Shown here piece after piece: positions 35,132 to 45,412 of a stretch of DNA of 64,000 bases. Made by a program: the position numbers and the translations under genes. The DNA is taken from assembly GCF_021653975.1 (NCBI RefSeq), contig NZ_JAJKFK010000003.1:806001-870000 (forward strand). The letters run 5' to 3'. The notes beneath the pieces were generated by a model. That model was not told where the DNA came from. It worked only from the letters and a program-made list of their open reading frames with translations, and searched no databases. The number at the start of each line of letters is the position of its first letter. The first letter of the stretch is position 1. This stretch comes from Amycolatopsis sp. GM8. Lineage in GTDB: Bacteria > Actinomycetota > Actinomycetes > Mycobacteriales > Pseudonocardiaceae.

Positions 35132-36055
35132 ATGACCGTGGCGACCCATTTCCTGCTGCAGGTGCTTCAGAACCACATCGACGCCGGCAACGGGTCGCAG
35201 ACCGTCTGGTGGGACGAGTCGCGGATTCCGCTCGACTCGATCGAGAAGCGGGTCACGGACCTGCTGGACCTGCGGGGCCGGCGCGCCGTCGTCACCGGCG
35301 GCGCGGGGATCAACCTCGGGCAGGCGTGTGTGAACCGGCTGGCCGGCCTGGGCGCGGACGTCGCCGTCGTCGACCTGAGCGCCGAGCAGGTGCGCGAGCG
35401 GGGCTTCTCGCGGCACCCGTCCGCACCGGACGCCGAGGGTGTCGCCGCCGCTGCCGCCAAGAAGTGGGGCACGAACGTCGTCCCCATCCACGGCGACGTG
35501 ATGGACTGGGACAGCGTGCAGCAGGTCATGACGACGGCCGCGGAAGCCTTGGGCGGCATCGACATCCTGGTCAACAACGCGGCGGACGTCGTGGTCGGCG
35601 ACTTCATGAACTTCGGTCGCGAGGAGATCGACCGCTCCGTGCGAGGTACCCTGACCGGCCCGATGTACTGCACCCGAGCCGCGCTCGACCACATGGTGCC
35701 CCAGGGCCGCGGCCGGATCATCAACATCGGGTCGGAGGCGGGCAGCTCGGCCATGCCCGGGCTGACCGTGTACGGCGCGCTCAAGTCCGGCCTCGGCCAG
35801 TTCACCCGGTTCCTCGGCAAGGAACTCGGCCCGCAGGGGATCCAGGTACTGGGGGTCAACGCCGGCTCGATGTGGGGGCCCGGCCGCCCGCTGACCGACG
35901 ACCGCCCGGAGACGCTCTATCCCCGCGGCCGCACCGCGATCCAGCGCTACGAGCTGCCGGAGGAGGTCGCGAACATGGTCGCGTTCCTCGCCAGTGACGC
36001 GGCGAGCGCGATGAACGGCGCCATGATCGACATGGGCGGCGGGATGGCGGTCTGA
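35132..36055 (+). CDS. SDR-family oxidoreductase with N-terminal extension (paralogue of 34013-34930)
   Basis: 307 residues. The same 45-residue extension as the divergent SDR precedes VVTGGAGINLGQA; DSIEKRVTDLLDLRGRR differs in only a few residues. Catalytic motif YGALK with Ser in NIGSEAGSS. ATG 35132 abuts GAGGGG, and GTG 35138 has better spacing, so the first two residues are uncertain. Followed after 4 bases by a crotonase gene. Probably works on a CoA-ester or ring alcohol of the same pathway; the partner could be the divergent paralogue. Confidence 0.88.
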   Translation: MTVATHFLLQVLQNHIDAGNGSQTVWWDESRIPLDSIEKRVTDLLDLRGRRAVVTGGAGINLGQACVNRLAGLGADVAVVDLSAEQVRERGFSRHPSAPDAEGVAAAAAKKWGTNVVPIHGDVMDWDSVQQVMTTAAEALGGIDILVNNAADVVVGDFMNFGREEIDRSVRGTLTGPMYCTRAALDHMVPQGRGRIINIGSEAGSSAMPGLTVYGALKSGLGQFTRFLGKELGPQGIQVLGVNAGSMWGPGRPLTDDRPETLYPRGRTAIQRYELPEEVANMVAFLASDAASAMNGAMIDMGGGMAV

Positions 36056-36872: not shown

Positions 36873-37808
36873 TCACTCCGCTTGGTCTCGCAGGAAGTCT
36901 CGGGCCGAGGTCGCGGCGGTGGCGCCGTCGGCGGCGGCCATCACCGCATAACCCCCGAAGCCCCGGCGTGCGCCGCCTGCCGCGAAGAGGCCGGGCACGG
37001 GGGTGCGCATCCCAGCGTCGACCACGACACCGCAGCCGGCGTCCTCGTCGAGCAGCGATTCCAGCAGGCCCGTGTTCGGCGCCATCCCGCTGTTCACGAA
37101 CAGGCCGGCCAGCGACAGGTCGGTGACGGCCGCCGATCCCACGTCGCGAACCTGAACCGCGGTCAGCACCCCGCCGGATTCGTGCACCTCGGTCACCTCG
37201 GCATTGGGCAGAACCCTGATCCGCTCGCTCGCCTCGATGGCCTGGTAGGTCGCGGATGCCAGCTGCGGATCGGGCCGGCTCGTGATCAGGGTGACGTCGG
37301 ACGCGTAGCGCGCGACCACCAATGCTTCACGCCCGGCGAAGTCGTCATCACCCACCACGGCCACGGGCCGATCCTTGAAGAACGGTCCGTCGCAGGTCCC
37401 GCAGTAGGAGATTCCCCGTCCTTCGAGCGCGTCCTCACCCGCGACCCCGAGTTTGCGCCGCTTGGCGCCGGTGGCGAGGATGACGGTCGCCGCGCGTGTG
37501 GTGTCCGACAGGCCCGCCACGAGGAACCCGCCGGATTCACGGGAGATACCGGTGACATCGTCGAAGACGAATTCCGCGCCCGCCTCGACCGCCTGCGCCT
37601 CGACCCTGCTCGCGAGTTCGCTGCCGGAGACGGGTTCGGTCAACCCCGGATAGCGGTCGACCTCCTCCAGGTTGATGAGCTCGCCGCCCAGCACGATCTC
37701 GGTCAGGACGGCCGTGCGGAGACCGAAACCGGCGGCGAACAGCCCGGCGGTCAATGCCGCGATGCCACCGCCCACGACTGCCACATCGAGGACCTCCGGC
37801 GCGCTCAT
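36873..37808 (-). CDS. Thioredoxin-reductase-like FAD oxidoreductase
   Basis: 311 residues, the size of bacterial TrxR. FAD motif VVGGGIAALTAG, redox-active CGTC at 136-139 (TrxR has CATC) and the C-terminal GLFAAGGARRGFGG. The NADPH-binding loop, usually GGGDSAxxEA, reads VGDDDFAGREA and lacks two of the glycines, so NADPH may be bound weakly or another reductant used. ATG 37808 overlaps the UGSC gene stop (ATGA). The pairing suggests that it keeps the UGSC protein's cysteines reduced. Confidence 0.87.
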   Translation of the reverse strand: MSAPEVLDVAVVGGGIAALTAGLFAAGFGLRTAVLTEIVLGGELINLEEVDRYPGLTEPVSGSELASRVEAQAVEAGAEFVFDDVTGISRESGGFLVAGLSDTTRAATVILATGAKRRKLGVAGEDALEGRGISYCGTCDGPFFKDRPVAVVGDDDFAGREALVVARYASDVTLITSRPDPQLASATYQAIEASERIRVLPNAEVTEVHESGGVLTAVQVRDVGSAAVTDLSLAGLFVNSGMAPNTGLLESLLDEDAGCGVVVDAGMRTPVPGLFAAGGARRGFGGYAVMAAADGATAATSARDFLRDQAE

Positions 37809-38392
37809 TGGGCCGGCCCATCGACACCGGAAACCAGGCCTTCGCGCAGCTCAGCGGCCTTCAACCCGTCGATGCCGAGCAATGATAGGACCTGCGGCAA
37901 AGCCTCCTGTGCGCGTTCGGCGATCTCGCTCGCCTCCAGGCTCGAAACCGGATGCTGGACGCGCGCGAACTCGTAACCCGGGATTCCCCGGCGTTTCGCC
38001 ATCGCCGCGCCGGAGGCCAGGAACGGCTCGGTGCAGATCGCGACCGTGGGCACGCCGCTGATCTCCAGATCAGTGGCGACGTGCAGCGTGGTCGCCGAGC
38101 ACGAGCCGCAGTCACCCAGCCCGGTCAGCACGACGTCACAGCGATCGATCAGGTCGGCCAGCTGCTCACTGGACGGCAGCATCACACCGGCGGTGATCAC
38201 CGGGCCGATGACCTCGGCGCCGGGCAGTTCGTCACTCAAAAGGCCGGCCACGGCCTGCAGCAATTCGGGCGCGTTGCGCTTGGTGTTGGCGAGCAAACCG
38301 ACGACCAGGCCCTTCCTGCTCGTCGGCCGCGGCGCGATGTTCATTTGTGCCACCGAATCCACTGGCACCGGGATGAGAGCTTCGATCGTCAT
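37805..38392 (-). CDS. UGSC-family protein, cysteine form
   Basis: 195 residues. The motif GLGDCGSCSA places C95-G-S-C98 where selenoprotein members of the UGSC family have U-G-S-C, so this is a Cys homologue. The surroundings (VVGLLANTKRNAPELL, then strand-helix repeats) look like a single alpha/beta domain. The CxxC-like CGSC suggests redox chemistry. ATG 38392 overlaps the preceding gene's stop, and its own stop overlaps the TrxR-like start. The reaction is not known to me; redox or group transfer on a CoA-linked or aromatic substrate is inference from the operon. Confidence 0.8.
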   Translation of the reverse strand: MTIEALIPVPVDSVAQMNIAPRPTSRKGLVVGLLANTKRNAPELLQAVAGLLSDELPGAEVIGPVITAGVMLPSSEQLADLIDRCDVVLTGLGDCGSCSATTLHVATDLEISGVPTVAICTEPFLASGAAMAKRRGIPGYEFARVQHPVSSLEASEIAERAQEALPQVLSLLGIDGLKAAELREGLVSGVDGPAQ

Positions 38393-39474
38393 TTGTCGGC
38401 CTTTCCACTTCGCTGTTCGACCGGCGAAAGGATGAACTCGCCCGGCGGCGTCGAATAGCACCAGCTGGTGATGACGGAGGAAATCCCCGCGTTGCGGCCG
38501 CCGGCGACGATCAGCGCGATGTCGTCCGGGCACCGTGCGCCGTAGCGATAGGCCGTTCCTCCCTCGCTGCGATCGCGCAGTGGATCCGGGCGGATCGCGA
38601 GCCCGGCCCGTTCGAGATCGGCCACCGGGCGCCGGAAGTTCTCGTAGAGGTACTGCTTGACCTCCTGCTTGGACCAGCCGTGCTTGGAACCGACGAGATC
38701 CGCGTGCTCCGGTCCCATGACGACCACCACCGGGCCGCCGGGCACCATCGCGCCGAGCCTGGACAAGGTGTCCGCGATGGTGAACAGGACCCCCTCGGCG
38801 CTGCCGCTCATCCGGTTCTCGACCGGCTCCGGTCCGCGCGCGCTCATCACCATCACGGTGCTGCTGCCGGCGGCGAACCCACGCTCGACGTGCAGCGGCT
38901 CCCACGGCGACTGTTCTTCGTTCTCGGCGATGCAGAACCCGGCCTTGCCGGGATGTCCCTGGGTGGCCTGGTCCAGGGTGCTGGGCAGGAACCCGAGCAC
39001 GTTGCGGATGATCAGCCGCAGGGCGCGTCCGATGGCGACATTGGCGTGCGCCACGGGGGCGTAGACGTTGGTGCCGCTGTTCATGCCCAGCTCGCCGCGC
39101 ACAGGTCCGTTCACCACGGTCAATTGCGCGGCGCCGCCCGTGCTGGCATTGCTCATGTAGAAGTAGGTGCGGTCGCCCGACCCCCAGCGTGAGTCGGCCC
39201 AGCCACGGACCGCGGCCACGACGACCCGGAACTGCTCCGGCGCACAGCCGGCCAGGACAGCGTTGACGGCCGCCAGGCGGACCGTCACCTCGCGGCGGCT
39301 CTCCTCGACAGCCAGCAGTACCTCGTCGGGATCCGCGTCGACCGCGGCCAGGAAGTGATCCACCCGGTCCTGGGTCGGCACCGTCACCGGGAGGTGATCG
39401 GTCCAGCCCCGGGAGGCGAAATCGCGGCCGATCTCGTCCTCCGACTCGCCGGCGATCGTCTGAGCCACCTTCAT
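38389..39474 (-). CDS. Uncharacterised 361-residue partner of UGSC protein
   Basis: I do not recognise the fold. It is soluble, with no signal peptide; cysteines are few, one at AGFCIAENEEQSP about residue 178 in a well-conserved-looking stretch (FLPSTLDQATQGHPGK precedes it), another near residue 76 in VLAGCAPEQF. The N-terminal DRVDHFLAAVDADPDEVL is helical. Sits between the FAH-family gene and the UGSC gene with ATGA overlaps on both sides, so it is made in step with both and is probably the catalytic partner of the UGSC protein. Confidence 0.75.
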   Translation of the reverse strand: MKVAQTIAGESEDEIGRDFASRGWTDHLPVTVPTQDRVDHFLAAVDADPDEVLLAVEESRREVTVRLAAVNAVLAGCAPEQFRVVVAAVRGWADSRWGSGDRTYFYMSNASTGGAAQLTVVNGPVRGELGMNSGTNVYAPVAHANVAIGRALRLIIRNVLGFLPSTLDQATQGHPGKAGFCIAENEEQSPWEPLHVERGFAAGSSTVMVMSARGPEPVENRMSGSAEGVLFTIADTLSRLGAMVPGGPVVVVMGPEHADLVGSKHGWSKQEVKQYLYENFRRPVADLERAGLAIRPDPLRDRSEGGTAYRYGARCPDDIALIVAGGRNAGISSVITSWCYSTPPGEFILSPVEQRSGKADK

Positions 39475-40223
39475 TGGTTACTCCTTCTGACGGGGTTCCG
39501 CAGTGTCCCGATGCCCTCGATCTCGACCTCGACCACATCGCCGTCCCCGAGGGGTTCGAGGTCCGGCGGCGTGCCGAAGCAGACCAGGTCGCCGGGGCGC
39601 AGCGTCATGAACCCGCTGATCCAGCTGATCACCTCGTCGGTCGACCAGTTCATCAGCGAGGTGACCGTGTCGGTGACGACCCGGCCGTTGATCCGGGCCC
39701 GCAACGGCGCGTCGTCCGGATCGAGTTCGGTCTCGACGACCGGGCCCAGCACGCCGAACGTGTCGAAGGATTTCCCCGGGAGGAACGGGAAGTTGGTCGT
39801 CACGCCGAGGTCCGTGGCCGTCACGTCGTTGACGCAGGTCCAGCCGACGACGTGGGCGCGCGCCTCGGCCGGGGTGACACCGCGGCAGGTCCGGCCGATC
39901 ACCGCGGCGATCTCGGGCTCGTAGACGACGGTGGGGCAGCTCTCGGGCAGCACGATCGTGTCGCCGTCGCCGATCAGTGAGCTGGTCGGCTTGATGAAGA
40001 AGCTCGGGCCGTCGCGGCCGTCCCGGCCCTTCCAATTGCCGAGCAGGCAGACCACGGTGCTGGTCGGCGTGACCGGCTTGACGACGGTGAGCCCGTCGGC
40101 CGGGCCCAGGTCGCGACCCTCCTGGCGGAGGTCCCCGAGGTCGCGCAATTCGACCGAGTGCTCCCGGTCGAGCCGGGCCCAGACCTCCTCACCGGAGCCG
40201 AGCAGAACGCGCCCGATCTTCAT
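39471..40223 (-). CDS. Fumarylacetoacetate hydrolase (FAH)-family protein
   Basis: 250 residues. Mg-binding acidic residues in VVYEPEIAAVIGR and the downstream TCVNDVTATDLGV, plus GKSFDTFGVLGP and the C-terminal FGTPPDLEPLGDGD, match FAH-type hydrolases, decarboxylases and hydratases of meta-cleavage pathways. ATG 40223 overlaps the SDR stop; the longer frame is SDR sequence out of frame. Likely cleaves or hydrates a 2-oxo acid in the ring-degradation route. Confidence 0.92.
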   Translation of the reverse strand: MKIGRVLLGSGEEVWARLDREHSVELRDLGDLRQEGRDLGPADGLTVVKPVTPTSTVVCLLGNWKGRDGRDGPSFFIKPTSSLIGDGDTIVLPESCPTVVYEPEIAAVIGRTCRGVTPAEARAHVVGWTCVNDVTATDLGVTTNFPFLPGKSFDTFGVLGPVVETELDPDDAPLRARINGRVVTDTVTSLMNWSTDEVISWISGFMTLRPGDLVCFGTPPDLEPLGDGDVVEVEIEGIGTLRNPVRRSNQ

Positions 40224-40984
40224 GCCTTCGGTCCCCCGGCGACGTAGAGCACCTGTCCCGAGACGAACGAGGCCTCCTCGCGGACGAAGAACGAGACGGC
40301 AGCGGCGATATCCTCCGGCTGGCCCACCCGGCCGACCGGGATCTCGGCGGCCCGCATGACGGTGTAGTCCTCGTACGGCATCCCGATCCTGACCGCGGTG
40401 TCGCGGGTCATGTCGGTGACGATGAACCCGGGCGCCACGGCATTGGCGGTGATCCCGAACTTCCCGAGTTCCATCGCGAGCGTCTTGGTGAACCCCTGCA
40501 GCCCGGACTTCGCCGCGGCGTAGTTGGCCTGGCCCTTCTTGCCGAGCGCGGACGTGCTGGACAGGTTCACGATCCGGCCCCAGCCCGCGCTGACCATGTA
40601 CTTCTGGGTGGCCCGCGACATGAGGTAGGCGCCGCGCAGGTGGACATTGATGACGGCGTCCCACTCGTCGGGCTGGAGCTTGAAGAGCAGGTTGTCGCGG
40701 ACGATGCCGGCGTTGTTGACCAGCACCGTGGGTTCGCCGAGCTCCGCGACCACGCGATCGACCGCGGCCCCCACATCCTCCACAACGGACACGTCCGCGC
40801 CGACGGCCAGCGCCCTGCCGCCGGCGGCTTCGATCTCCTCGACGGCCGGGGCACACGCCTTCTCGTCGAGGTCGAGGACGGCGACGGCACAGCCGTCCGC
40901 CGCGAGCCGGTTCGCGACCCCGCGACCGATCCCCCGGGCACCTCCGGTCACGATCGCGACCGGGTTTCTGTCCTTGCCGAACAC
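40220..40984 (-). CDS. SDR-family oxidoreductase (FabG-like)
   Basis: 254 residues, full canonical set: TGGARGIGRGVA, NNAGIV, YAAAK with Ser in LSSTSALG, and GQVLYVAGG at the end. The closest general match is 3-oxoacyl-ACP/CoA reductases. GTG 40984 has AAAGGACG 8 bases upstream and is preferred; the longer frame reads CaiB sequence out of frame. 16 bases after the CaiB stop; its stop overlaps the FAH start. Confidence 0.93.
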   Translation of the reverse strand: MFGKDRNPVAIVTGGARGIGRGVANRLAADGCAVAVLDLDEKACAPAVEEIEAAGGRALAVGADVSVVEDVGAAVDRVVAELGEPTVLVNNAGIVRDNLLFKLQPDEWDAVINVHLRGAYLMSRATQKYMVSAGWGRIVNLSSTSALGKKGQANYAAAKSGLQGFTKTLAMELGKFGITANAVAPGFIVTDMTRDTAVRIGMPYEDYTVMRAAEIPVGRVGQPEDIAAAVSFFVREEASFVSGQVLYVAGGPKA

Positions 40985-41000: not shown

Positions 41001-42155
41001 TCAGCTTGACGCACGGGATGCCAGCCACGCCCGGATTTCCTCGCCCGCGTTGTCCAGCGCGGGCGGGCGGTGGCGGTACTGCGGCGGGGTGAGTGAGTAG
41101 GTGGCGGGGTTCCGGACCATCGGCACCCCTTCGACGTCCACGACGGGGTCGAGACCGAGCCGGGTCGCCAGCTCCACCCCGCCACGCACGTCGTTGATCG
41201 GCCCGCAGGGCAGGCCGGCGCCGGTGAGCAGCTCGGCCCACTCGTCGGCGCCGCGCGTGGCCAGCACGCTCGCCAGCTCGGGGCGCAGCTCCTCGCGGTG
41301 CCGGTTGCGCAGCCCGACCGTGGCGAACCGCGGGTCCGCCGCGAGATCCGGCCGGCCCAGCGCGGTGCAGAGCGTCCGGAACTGGCGGTCGTTGCCGGCG
41401 ACGATGATCAGCTCCCGGTCGGCCGTCGGGAACGGGCCGTACGGGAAGAGGCTGGGATGCTCGTTCCCCATCCGCTGGGGCACCACGCCCCCGGCGACGT
41501 AGGCCGAGGACTGGTTGATCATCGACGACAACGCGCTCGTCAACAGGTCGAGCTCGACGAACTGGCCCTGGCCGGTCCGGCCACGGTGGTTCAGCGCGGC
41601 GAGCACCGCGACCGTCGCGTGCAGCCCGGTCATCACGTCGATGGCGGAGATCCCGGCCCGCAGCGGGGCGCCATCGGCCTCGCCGGTCATCGCCATCATC
41701 CCCGACACGGCCTGGATCAGCAGGTCGTAGCCCGGCAGGGCGGCACCCTCGCGACTGCCGAACCCGCTGATGGCGCAGTAGACGACGGCCGGGTTGACCG
41801 CCGCCACATCCTCGTACCCCAGGCCGTACCGCTCGATGCCGCCGGGCCTGAAGTTGTGCACGAACACGTCGGCGCGGTGCGCGAGACTCCGCGCCGCGGC
41901 GAGGTCGGCCTCGTCCGCGAGGTCGAGCGCGATGGATCTCTTGTTGCGGTTCACGGCCATGTAGTACGTCGACTCGTCGCCCCGCACCGGCGGCACGAAC
42001 GTCCTCGTGTCGTCGCCGGCCCGGCTCTCGACCTTGATCACGTCGGCGCCGAGGTCGCCGAGCAGCATGGTGCAATAGGGCCCGGCGACGATGCGCGAGA
42101 AGTCCGCGACGACCAGCCCGGACAGCGGCCCGGCGACCGGTGGCAGGTCAGCCAT
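41001..42155 (-). CDS. CaiB/BaiF-family (class III) CoA transferase
   Basis: 384 residues. VVADFSRIVAGPYCTMLLGD and ADVIKVE near the N-terminus, the catalytic Asp region AISAIDVMTGLHA and GRTGQGQFVELDLL are typical. Moves CoA between carboxylic acids without a free intermediate, so a pathway acid is activated here. The start overlaps the monooxygenase gene by 8 bases, in the same operon. Confidence 0.94.
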   Translation of the reverse strand: MADLPPVAGPLSGLVVADFSRIVAGPYCTMLLGDLGADVIKVESRAGDDTRTFVPPVRGDESTYYMAVNRNKRSIALDLADEADLAAARSLAHRADVFVHNFRPGGIERYGLGYEDVAAVNPAVVYCAISGFGSREGAALPGYDLLIQAVSGMMAMTGEADGAPLRAGISAIDVMTGLHATVAVLAALNHRGRTGQGQFVELDLLTSALSSMINQSSAYVAGGVVPQRMGNEHPSLFPYGPFPTADRELIIVAGNDRQFRTLCTALGRPDLAADPRFATVGLRNRHREELRPELASVLATRGADEWAELLTGAGLPCGPINDVRGGVELATRLGLDPVVDVEGVPMVRNPATYSLTPPQYRHRPPALDNAGEEIRAWLASRASS

Positions 42156-43935
42156 TTTCGGTCGATTCGAAGATCAGCCCTTCCCACGACCCCTCGGCGC
42201 GCCAGGCGCTGATGAGGTGGTCGAAGGCGACGATCCCGGGCCCGTAGGCCCCGTTGCGCCGGGAGGCGGTCGCGTTGGGCTTGCCCTCGTTGTTGTAGTA
42301 GCCGGGGGTGCACGATTCGAGGAATTCGAGGTTGGCGCGCGAGGAGTCGAAGACGGTCTGGACCCAGGCCTCCTCGGCCGCCACGTCCACCTCGATGGCC
42401 CGGGCCGCCCGGCTGTCGGCCTCGTGGATGACCTGGCTGACGTGCCGGCTCTGCACGTCGAGCACATGGGCGAAGTTCGAGCTCACACCGACCTGGTTGA
42501 GCGCGACGATGAAGAAGTTCGGGAAACCGTTGGTCTGCATCCCGTAGAGCGTCGAGATCCCGGTCTTGAACTTCTCGCTCAGCTTCCGTCCGCCGCGGCC
42601 GGTCACGTCGTAGCCGAGCCGGGTCGCGAACGGCGCGGCCACCTGGAACCCGCTGGCGAAAACGAGGCAGTCGACGTCGTACTCGGTGCCGGCCACCACG
42701 ATCCCGGTCGGGGTGACGCGCTCGATGCCTTGACCGTCGGTGTCGAGCAGGGTCACGTTCGGCCGGTTGAACGTCTCGAGGTACTCGTCGTTGAAACAGG
42801 GCCGCTTACAAAGCGCGCGATACCAGGGCTTCAGCCCCTCCGCCGTCGCGGGGTCGCGCACGATGGCGGCCACCCGCCCCCGGATCTCCTCCATCTTCGT
42901 GAAGTCGTCGATCTCGTCCAGGACGCCGCCGCTGAGCGTGCGGAGCCGGTAGATGGCGGTCCAGCCGTCGTTGACCAGGTCCGTCTCGGCGTCGCCACCG
43001 GCGACGAAGGTCGAGAAGTTGTCCATCCGTTCCCGTTGCCAGCCGGGCTTGAGCGTCTCGGCCCAGGCCGGGTCGGTCGGCCGGTTGTTGCGCGCGTTGA
43101 CCGCCGACGGGGTGCGCTGGACGACGTAGAGGTGGCCCGCGCTCGCGCCGAGATGGGGCACCGCCTGGATCGCGGTGGCACCGGTGCCGACGATCGCGAC
43201 CTTCTTGTCGGCGAGGTTCTCGAGCCCCCCGGTGCTGTCCCCGCCGGTGTAGGCGTAGTCCCACCGGGTCGTGTGGAACGTGTGGCCGCGGAAGCTCTCG
43301 ATCCCGGGCACGCCGGGGAGCTTGGGCTTCTGCATCGCCCCCGCGGTCATGCAGACGTACCGCGCGGTGAACCGGTCGCCGCGGTCGGTCTCCACCGTCC
43401 AGAGGCCGTCCGCCTCGCTCCAGGTGACACCGGAGACCCGGGTCTGGAGCAGCGCCTTGTCATAAAGGCGGTAGTGGCGGGCGATCCGGTGGCAGTGCGC
43501 CAGGATCTCGGGCGCCTTCACGTACTTCTCGCTCGGTATGTAGCCCGTCTCCTCCAGCAGCGGGAGGTAGATGTAGGCCTCGGTGTCACAGGCGGCGCCC
43601 GGGTAGCGGTTCCAGTACCAGGTGCCGCCGAAATCGCCGCCCTGCTCGACGAGCCGGATGTCCGTGTAGCCCAGGTCGCGCAGGCGCGCGCCGAGGAGCA
43701 TCCCGCCGAACCCGCCGCCGATGACGGCGACATCGACGTGGTCGGAGACGGGCTCGCGTTCGGTTCTCGGCGTATAGGGGTCGTCGATGAAACGCGCGAG
43801 TTCGCCCTCGAGCGCCTGGTACTGGCGTGCGCCGTCCTCACGCAGCCGCTTGTCGCGCTCGATCCGGTACTTCTCGCGGAGCACATCCGGGTCGAACCCG
43901 AGCGCCTTCGTGTCCCTCTGGCCTGTCACTGTCAC
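42148..43935 (-). CDS. Baeyer-Villiger-type flavin monooxygenase
   Basis: 595 residues. First Rossmann motif VAVIGGGFGGMLLG, the fingerprint FRGHTFHTTRWDY (FxGxxxHTxxW(P/D)) and the second motif VAIVGTGATAIQ identify a class B flavoprotein monooxygenase. An N-terminal 65-residue extension precedes the FAD motif, as in larger BVMOs. It inserts oxygen next to a ketone to give an ester or lactone, which the hydrolase encoded upstream (43932-44855) could open. Start overlaps the hydrolase stop (ATGA-type), downstream overlap with CaiB. Confidence 0.93.
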   Translation of the reverse strand: MTVTGQRDTKALGFDPDVLREKYRIERDKRLREDGARQYQALEGELARFIDDPYTPRTEREPVSDHVDVAVIGGGFGGMLLGARLRDLGYTDIRLVEQGGDFGGTWYWNRYPGAACDTEAYIYLPLLEETGYIPSEKYVKAPEILAHCHRIARHYRLYDKALLQTRVSGVTWSEADGLWTVETDRGDRFTARYVCMTAGAMQKPKLPGVPGIESFRGHTFHTTRWDYAYTGGDSTGGLENLADKKVAIVGTGATAIQAVPHLGASAGHLYVVQRTPSAVNARNNRPTDPAWAETLKPGWQRERMDNFSTFVAGGDAETDLVNDGWTAIYRLRTLSGGVLDEIDDFTKMEEIRGRVAAIVRDPATAEGLKPWYRALCKRPCFNDEYLETFNRPNVTLLDTDGQGIERVTPTGIVVAGTEYDVDCLVFASGFQVAAPFATRLGYDVTGRGGRKLSEKFKTGISTLYGMQTNGFPNFFIVALNQVGVSSNFAHVLDVQSRHVSQVIHEADSRAARAIEVDVAAEEAWVQTVFDSSRANLEFLESCTPGYYNNEGKPNATASRRNGAYGPGIVAFDHLISAWRAEGSWEGLIFESTENG

Positions 43936-44855
43936 CTGACGTCTCCTGGAATTGCGGTGGCGCGGGCCGCGTTGCGGCGGACCGCCGTGATGATCTGGGG
44001 CCAGGCTCCGCGCACGATGCCGTGACCCATTCCGTCGATGACTTCGAACCGGGCGTCCGGCACGGCGTCCGCGGTCGCCCGGCCGCCACTGATGCCGACC
44101 AGGCGGTCGTCGGTCCCGTGGATGACGACCGTGGGCACCCGGAGGCCGCGGAGTGCGGGTGTCCGGTCCGCGGCGGCGATGGCGGCCGCCTGCTGGCGGA
44201 GCCGGCCGGCCGGGTCGTGCGCGCGGTCGTAGGCCGCGGCCGCTTTGGTCCGCGCCGCCTCTTCGTCGAACGGGAAGCCGCTGCCGGCAAGCGCGCGTGA
44301 CCGCTCCACCGCCGCCTCGACGACGCCCTCGCGGGTGGGCGGGGCTGGGCGGCGCATCAGCGCGATGGTGTCGGGGTCCGGCTGGCCGACGGCCCGGTCA
44401 CCGGTGCTGGACATGATCGAGCACAGCGACAGCACCCGTTCCGGCCAGCGGATCGCGACCAGTTGCGCGATCATCCCGCCCATCGACGCGCCGAGGAGGT
44501 GGGCACGGTCCAGGCCGAGCGCGTCGAGGAGGCCCACAACGTCGGCGGCCATGTCGTCGAGGGTGTACGGCAGTGTGCTCAGGTCGCCGCCGCGAATCGC
44601 CGCGAGATCAGGGTTTCCGTCGATCCGTTGCGACAACCCGACATCACGGTTGTCGAACCGGATCACGAAGAAACCCGAGCCGATGAGCTCGTCGACGAAA
44701 CCCCGGTCCCAGCCGTCCAATTGGGTGCCCTGGCCCATGATCATCAGCAGCGGCGGATCGGCCGGATCGCCGTAGGTCGCACAGCACAGGCTGATCCCGT
44801 TCGCCAGGACCGACCGGGGCACCTCGTTTCGCATGTCGTGGGGGGTCGATCCCAC
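43932..44855 (-). CDS. Alpha/beta hydrolase (esterase/lactonase-like)
   Basis: 307 residues. The nucleophile elbow is LLGASMGGMI (Ser about residue 116), acid in HGTDDRLV and His in GMGHGIV. N-terminal MGQGTQLDGW suggests the LipG/aclacinomycin-methylesterase-like group. GTG 44855 follows GAGGAGG by 5 bases and is preferred to the internal ATG at 44834. First gene of the operon; paired with the Baeyer-Villiger monooxygenase for ester hydrolysis. Expression probably under site 3 (45044-45063). Confidence 0.92.
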   Translation of the reverse strand: MGSTPHDMRNEVPRSVLANGISLCCATYGDPADPPLLMIMGQGTQLDGWDRGFVDELIGSGFFVIRFDNRDVGLSQRIDGNPDLAAIRGGDLSTLPYTLDDMAADVVGLLDALGLDRAHLLGASMGGMIAQLVAIRWPERVLSLCSIMSSTGDRAVGQPDPDTIALMRRPAPPTREGVVEAAVERSRALAGSGFPFDEEAARTKAAAAYDRAHDPAGRLRQQAAAIAAADRTPALRGLRVPTVVIHGTDDRLVGISGGRATADAVPDARFEVIDGMGHGIVRGAWPQIITAVRRNAARATAIPGDVR

Positions 44856-45103: not shown

Positions 45104-45412
45104 GTGACCTGGACAAAGGCGTGCGCTACGTCCGACCTCGAGGAGGGCGAGGGCTACCAGCTCGAAAGAGCTCGCCCGATCGCGCTCTTCACCGTCGACG
45201 GCGAATACTTCGCGATCGACGACACCTGCACCCACGACGAGTCGTCGCTGGCGGACGGCTACGTGGAAGGTGATGTCGTCGAGTGCGCGTGGCACTTCGC
45301 GAAGTTCTGCATCAGGACGGGAGAGGTGCTCAGCCTCCCGGCCACCTGCCCGGTGGCCACCTACGCCGTCAAGGTCGAGGGCGACGACGTCTTCGTCGAC
45401 CTCCCCGACTGA
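45104..45412 (+). CDS. Rieske-type [2Fe-2S] ferredoxin
   Basis: 102 residues. Cluster ligands C42-T-H44 and C61-A-W-H64 have normal Rieske spacing, and the fold is the small ferredoxin type of ring-hydroxylating dioxygenases (BphF/HcaC-like). It carries electrons from a reductase to an oxygenase. GTG 45104 has GAGGA upstream. No oxygenase alpha or beta subunit and no ferredoxin reductase are encoded nearby. It is followed by the dihydrodiol dehydrogenase. Confidence 0.93.
   Translation: MTWTKACATSDLEEGEGYQLERARPIALFTVDGEYFAIDDTCTHDESSLADGYVEGDVVECAWHFAKFCIRTGEVLSLPATCPVATYAVKVEGDDVFVDLPD

Follow-up and report, generated by a model that had tools for sequence, protein, structure and literature searches.

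In a 64,000-nucleotide stretch of the genome of Amycolatopsis sp. GM8 (contig NZ_JAJKFK010000003.1, positions 806,001 to 870,000; the window), a protein of the UGSC family is encoded beside a 361-residue protein, P361, and a flavoprotein that resembles thioredoxin reductase (TrxR). UGSC proteins have the same two residues at the same place as PrdB of D-proline reductase, they have a constant partner, and their cysteine (Cys) forms tend to lie beside a thioredoxin system. We therefore propose that P361 and UGSC form a reductive (seleno)thiol enzyme similar to PrdB and to GrdB of glycine reductase, but with a different partner subunit, and we give this an even chance of being correct. The link to GrdB and PrdB suggests which chemistry to examine. 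Given this link, together with a partner for co-purification and Cys-forms that are independent of selenocysteine (Sec) machinery, the reaction of the UGSC family should be testable in an ordinary host. The three genes of interest are:

36873..37808, minus strand: TrxR-like flavoprotein with C136-G-T-C139 and a degenerate NADPH loop; the proposed reductant of the pair
37805..38392, minus strand: UGSC family protein, Cys form (C95-G-S-C98), 195 amino acids; the proposed catalytic (nucleophile) subunit
38389..39474, minus strand: P361, the 361-residue partner protein; a near-obligate neighbor of UGSC, with conserved C77, C181, R150, and E184

The UGSC family and its motif

The window's UGSC protein scores above the cut-offs of both models for the family (172.1 bits against PF24696, cut-off 25; 133.7 bits against NF041046, cut-off 125), and its motif, size, and P361 neighbor match those of its relatives. 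It differs from the family in having Cys in place of Sec and in being coupled to a TrxR-like gene within an eight-gene unit. We aligned 74 UGSC sequences (the window's and those of at least 150 residues among 77 collected sequences; loci L087 and L088 are not included), and the columns of C95 and C98 are invariant if Sec is written as Cys. From 83 loci with flanks of varying length, we read the motif of 82 UGSC genes (L088 was under the threshold of the UGSC profile). The first position is Sec (TGA) in 53 genes, Cys in 28, and neither in one (L087), and all but one of the 82 have Sec or Cys at 95 plus Cys at 98. No SelB above the cut-off was found in the window's own genome, which is in keeping with a Cys-form.

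UGSC was among the major selenoprotein families in a 2008 metagenomic survey of the ocean, whose Table 2 gives 255 Sec forms for it (excerpt of PMC2398784). UAG-coded Sec in UGSC was reported previously for Geodermatophilaceae, according to a portion of PMC5330540. We confirmed by sequence a TAG at the Sec position of the UGSC genes in L071, L078, and L099-L106, which come from one family of the window's order; across 30 genomes, 12 of 14 UGSC places have a TAG inside. We also note that the annotation of a plasmid of Paracoccus ferrooxidans splits a Sec-form UGSC gene (L086:7360-7929) into two small hypothetical proteins; selB lies roughly 4 kb from it.

P361 and UGSC as probable subunits of one module

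The sequence-only reading of the window had suggested that P361 and UGSC form one enzyme. That they are two subunits of one enzyme module is now well supported. We surveyed 396 genomes of the window's phylum (Actinomycetota), scoring at most 8 UGSC candidates and 5 P361 candidates per genome, so our counts of places are lower bounds. UGSC is present in 26 genomes and P361 in 28, and all 26 genomes with UGSC have P361 (Fisher 1e-38, uncorrected for kinship). P361 lies within 1 kb and on the same strand at 39 of the 43 UGSC places, and L198 brings this to 40, so that adjacency to P361 is near-universal. The other three places are L197, which is cut by a contig end; L199, a fragment of 60 positions; and L196, where UGSC starts about 750 bases from the start of the contig and no P361 was seen in the 4 kb that we read. 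Conversely, UGSC lies beside 39 of 47 P361 places, and two more have a fragment (L201) or a divergent copy (L200). We found three UGSC genes in the window's genome; each adjoins P361, with UGSC first in the two other pairs.

When species genomes were searched with P361, 26 loci were obtained, and 24 of these have UGSC beside P361; the exceptions are L010, with two tandem P361 genes, and L023, where the stretch begins inside P361. Both proteins were detected by profile in 79 of the 83 loci (all but L010, L023, L088, and L110). The neighborhood recurs across phyla, which implies that the pairing is more than chance. There are also natural fusions of UGSC to P361, in L032 (three of them), L057, and L079, as well as fusions with a degenerate motif in L087 and L088. 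The fusions in L032, L057, and L079 resemble the fusion of UGSC to a conserved domain, Unknown_1, in the ocean (GOS) selenoproteome, as described in part of PMC2398784. Unknown_1 would likely correspond to P361. Residues of the UGSC loop covary with P361 above 12 shuffled pairings, which is suggestive only. Finally, a joint AlphaFold2 model of the pair from a close relative has a pLDDT (predicted local distance difference test) of 85.7 and a pTM (predicted template modeling score) of 0.85.

Some loci have other arrangements. Tandem P361 pairs occur at L010:6876-9041 and at contig C272 of genome G183 (L202), and we found no UGSC gene beside them. Haloarchaeal plasmids (L082, L089, and L112) have P361-UGSC-P361 triplets, perhaps with two different P361 subunits per UGSC. 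A metagenome-assembled genome from the Chloroflexi has, within 17 kb (L032:1-16987), five P361 genes, two of them truncated where the stretch ends, along with four copies of UGSC, three of which are fused; the UGSC motifs there are U-G-A-C, U-G-T-C, and U-G-G-C.

Similarity to GrdB and PrdB

Profile comparison suggests that UGSC is distantly related to the Sec-bearing half of GrdB and PrdB (GRDB, PF07355). Among the 396 genomes surveyed above, 76 have GRDB itself. For comparison, we gathered 37 C-terminal Sec-bearing sequences from two sets of 20 loci or stretches. These are 15 full-length GrdB-like sequences (U-G-T-x-T-R) and 22 short ones (U-x-x-C) that we name PrdB-like by their length and motif. 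HHalign matched 28 UGSC sequences to this set at 96.2% (score 63.5 over 70 columns; the E value of 2.1e-9 is for this one comparison). In the alignment, C95 falls on Sec, C98 falls on the C of UxxC, and a conserved, proline-containing loop after the last strand is also aligned. Either subset alone gave a weaker match (88.3% for 21 of the 22 PrdB-like sequences and 85.5% for the 15 GrdB-like sequences). With all 74 UGSC rows, the match was 95.6%, and the maximum of 300 permuted alignments was 2.5%.

Other controls were also low. The maximum across 200 column-permuted alignments was 5.6% (score 24), the reversed alignment gave 1%, and alignments of P361 and TrxR gave under 1%. With six real protein families encoded at these loci (SDR, for short-chain dehydrogenase/reductase, twice; CaiB; enoyl-CoA hydratase/isomerase or ECH; monooxygenase; and TrxR), the match was never above 4.8%; two more families had too few members and were left out.

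In the mechanism proposed for PrdB, Sec acts as a nucleophile on the alpha carbon of pyruvoyl-bound D-proline; a Cys of PrdB would then cleave the selenoether, and the resulting selenide-sulfide would be re-reduced (excerpt of PMC3091704). In glycine reductase, electrons come from NADPH via TrxR and thioredoxin (same excerpt). By analogy, we infer nucleophilic attack, reductive cleavage, and a similar electron path for P361-UGSC, which has a partner subunit and, putatively, a thioredoxin-type reductant, as glycine reductase does. UGSC would be the nucleophile subunit, and P361 would most likely bind and activate the substrate, in place of GrdE or PrdA. Cys95 (Sec in most relatives) would attack a substrate carbon beside a carbonyl or similar group, and a heteroatom group would leave. 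Cys98, as the resolving residue, would cleave the (seleno)thioether so formed, after which a thioredoxin-type system, here probably the co-encoded TrxR-like flavoprotein, would re-reduce the 95-98 disulfide. In the window's operon, the pair would act on an intermediate of a CoA-linked catabolic route, either by removing a substituent from it or by opening it.

P361-UGSC also differs from the known reductases. P361 has no detectable similarity in sequence to GrdE-like proteins: profile comparisons to 14 of them, a set that does not include PrdA, gave 0.66% and 0.09%. No pyruvoyl subunit was identified. Also, the window's cluster includes a flavin monooxygenase, which suggests an aerobic setting.

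Several observations weigh against a PrdB/GrdB-like enzyme. PF07355 is not among the 12 families listed for 28 UGSC members in a profile scan with E up to 1. P361 matches no Pfam or NCBIfam family and has no credible match in PDB. There is no trxA gene in the window's operon. Six of the 47 P361 places are without UGSC (four of these are tandem genes of one genome). In the fusions from plasmids of Vibrio europaeus (L087:7362-9044) and Sporomusa termitida (L088:7332-9053), D-M-G-T-S replaces D-U-G-S-C, and aconitase X and DUF126 genes are nearby. These two fusions might represent a non-redox branch.

An unlikely alternative is that the pair is a lyase or isomerase with no net redox change, in which C95 serves as nucleophile or as base and the role of the TrxR-like protein is limited to the repair of accidental oxidation. 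This would fit the M-G-T-S relatives, the P361 pairs that have no UGSC, and the diversity of the neighbors, which include CoA, hydroxyacid, and hydratase genes. It would not account for the retention of both residues (81 of the 82 genes that we read and 74 of 74 aligned rows), the homology of UGSC to reductases, or the link of the Cys-forms to TrxR.

Another alternative, which we consider improbable, is that the pair is a thiol peroxidase or a general thiol-disulfide oxidoreductase that shields the cell. The predicted structure bears on this. In the joint model, UGSC is an alpha/beta, Rossmann-like domain of five strand-helix units, with the motif after the third strand. In the thioredoxin topology, the CxxC follows the first strand. 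The predicted position of the motif thus speaks against a thioredoxin fold, and the large conserved partner and the catabolic genes around UGSC in the window's clade speak against a shielding role. On the other hand, the UxxC motif, the redox context, and the trxA and trxB neighbors would suit a peroxidase or oxidoreductase. The 2008 survey considered a thioredoxin-like fold likely for UGSC (excerpt of PMC2398784), and a reference cited in PMC3091704 has a title on the peroxidase activity of GrdB.

The TrxR-like protein

TrxR-like genes are not general partners of UGSC, but they are near Cys-forms more often than near Sec-forms. Excluding the window itself, 10 of 28 Cys-forms have a TrxR-like gene within 2.5 kb on either strand, against 1 of 53 Sec-forms (Fisher 6e-5). 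If the three members of the window's clade and two haloarchaea are each collapsed to one, the counts are 7 of 25 and 1 of 53 (p 0.001). In all cases but L112, the TrxR-like gene is on the strand of the pair. Among evenly drawn loci, only 1 of 36 has a TrxR-like gene (L149, a Sec-form). The plasmid loci were taken from the hits of a single search and do not amount to random sampling. Some stretches are short, so absences of TrxR are partly blind. Most UGSC loci are without a TrxR-like gene nearby, which by the sequence-only reading's own criterion counts against it. Its suggestion that a TrxR-like protein keeps UGSC reduced is plausible for the window's pair, given the association with Cys-forms, but does not hold in general.

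Independent examples of a thioredoxin system beside the pair include trxB-trxA-P361-UGSC in Arthrobacter, P361-UGSC-trxB in Roseovarius, trxB in Variovorax, and a TrxR-like gene in the haloarchaeon Haloterrigena. The association of Cys-forms with TrxR bears on how enzymes cope with the loss of selenium.

The window's TrxR-like protein matches the Pyr_redox_2 domain (Pfam) and resembles TrxB in its FAD and CxxC layout. It differs from TrxB in scoring under the cut-off of TIGR01292 (TRX_reduct; 254.7 bits, cut-off 343.45) and in its NADPH loop. The loop, GDDDFAGREA, had been described as degenerate, and this is real and common to the four aligned members of the clade: the window's protein and its three closest relatives have G-D-[DH]-[DE]-F-A, and TSR, TRR, or TRH at the HRR-type motif. 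(The window's protein has TSRP.) Thus, the window's protein has neither the GGGDSA-type loop nor the HRR-type motif that are expected of TrxB.

Dithiol oxidases are NADPH-free relatives of TrxR, and the loss of both motifs in the window's clade would fit a reading of the TrxR-like protein as a dithiol oxidase, with electrons leaving the pair or a dithiol product. We think that this is very unlikely, as four other TrxR-like neighbors that we aligned have an intact GGG(D/N)(S/T)A loop and HRR or HRK, and one of these adjoins trxA.

Returning to a PrdB/GrdB-like reductive enzyme, we give a broader version of it somewhat less than an even chance. P361-UGSC may be a separate and widespread branch of the GrdB/PrdB type that has a new, possibly pyruvoyl-free activating subunit, that occurs in aerobes too, and that acts on CoA-linked or carbonyl substrates. 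Lineages that went from Sec to Cys may have offset this with a dedicated TrxR, and the TrxR-like protein of the window's clade may have changed its electron donor. As a separate observation, a Rieske ferredoxin gene lies just beyond the operon on the other strand (45104-45412) and might serve the TrxR-like protein as an electron carrier.

Genes around the pair

The other genes of interest in the window are:

35132..36055, plus strand: SDR3, an SDR; in each of the three nearest relatives, its counterpart immediately precedes P361
36060..36830, plus strand: ECH, convergent to the operon; also part of the cluster in the three nearest relatives
39471..40223, minus strand: FAA-hydrolase family protein (FAH), 250 amino acids, with a FAA_hydrolase match
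40220..40984, minus strand: SDR (FabG-like) oxidoreductase, 254 amino acids, with an adh_short match
41001..42155, minus strand: CaiB-type CoA-transferase (family III), 384 amino acids
42148..43935, minus strand: flavin monooxygenase, PtlE-like, 595 amino acids (774.7 bits, under the cut-off of 1100)
43932..44855, minus strand: alpha/beta hydrolase, 307 amino acids; the coupled unit, as seen here, starts with this gene

The five genes from SDR to the TrxR-like gene (SDR-FAH-P361-UGSC-TrxR-like) are open frames joined by four 4-base ATGA overlaps, with C95-G-S-C98 in UGSC, as first described. (The GTG start of SDR was our choice.) The unit does not begin at SDR. Upstream are the alpha/beta hydrolase, the flavin monooxygenase, and CaiB; these overlap by 4 and 8 bases in turn, and a gap of 16 bases separates CaiB from SDR, so the coupled unit has eight genes (44855-36873), all on the minus strand.

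The three nearest relatives among the loci found with P361 are from Streptomyces (L007 and L008) and Phytohabitans (L009). They do not keep the exact five-gene order of the window. Instead, an SDR3-P361-UGSC-TrxR cassette faces a convergent block on the other strand that contains ECH, SDR, and CaiB. As far as the stretches show, this block also includes FAH (L007 and L008), the monooxygenase (L007 and L009), or the alpha/beta hydrolase (L009). The two blocks stay together despite the changed arrangement, which fits a common pathway. The linkage of the pair to CaiB and the monooxygenase, which the sequence-only reading put forward as putative makers of the substrate, is thus retained in this clade. 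If we were to guess from gene families alone, the gene set would fit a route from a cyclic ketone to a lactone to a CoA ester, followed by hydratase steps.

Matching neighbors by tblastn (E up to 1e-15), we found CaiB-like genes in the stretches of 14 of the 83 loci, a related monooxygenase in 4, and FAH in 2. Beyond the window's clade (80 loci), there were 11 with CaiB-like genes and 2 with a related monooxygenase. None of the three was found in the 16-kb stretches of the two other UGSC pairs in the window's genome. In some distant relatives, a CaiB-like gene is directly behind UGSC (L116:8616-9752, L020:9600-10559, and L124:8281-9309). CaiB genes are common in genomes of this kind, so 14 of 83 is a mild hint, and CaiB-like neighbors mildly favor a CoA-linked substrate. 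Two other loci have genes similar to phosphosulfolactate synthase (ComA) near the pair: L081:5707-6492 from Arthrobacter and L108:4880-5344 from a haloarchaeon, which is a short and weak match. These genes may conceivably connect the pair to C-S chemistry.

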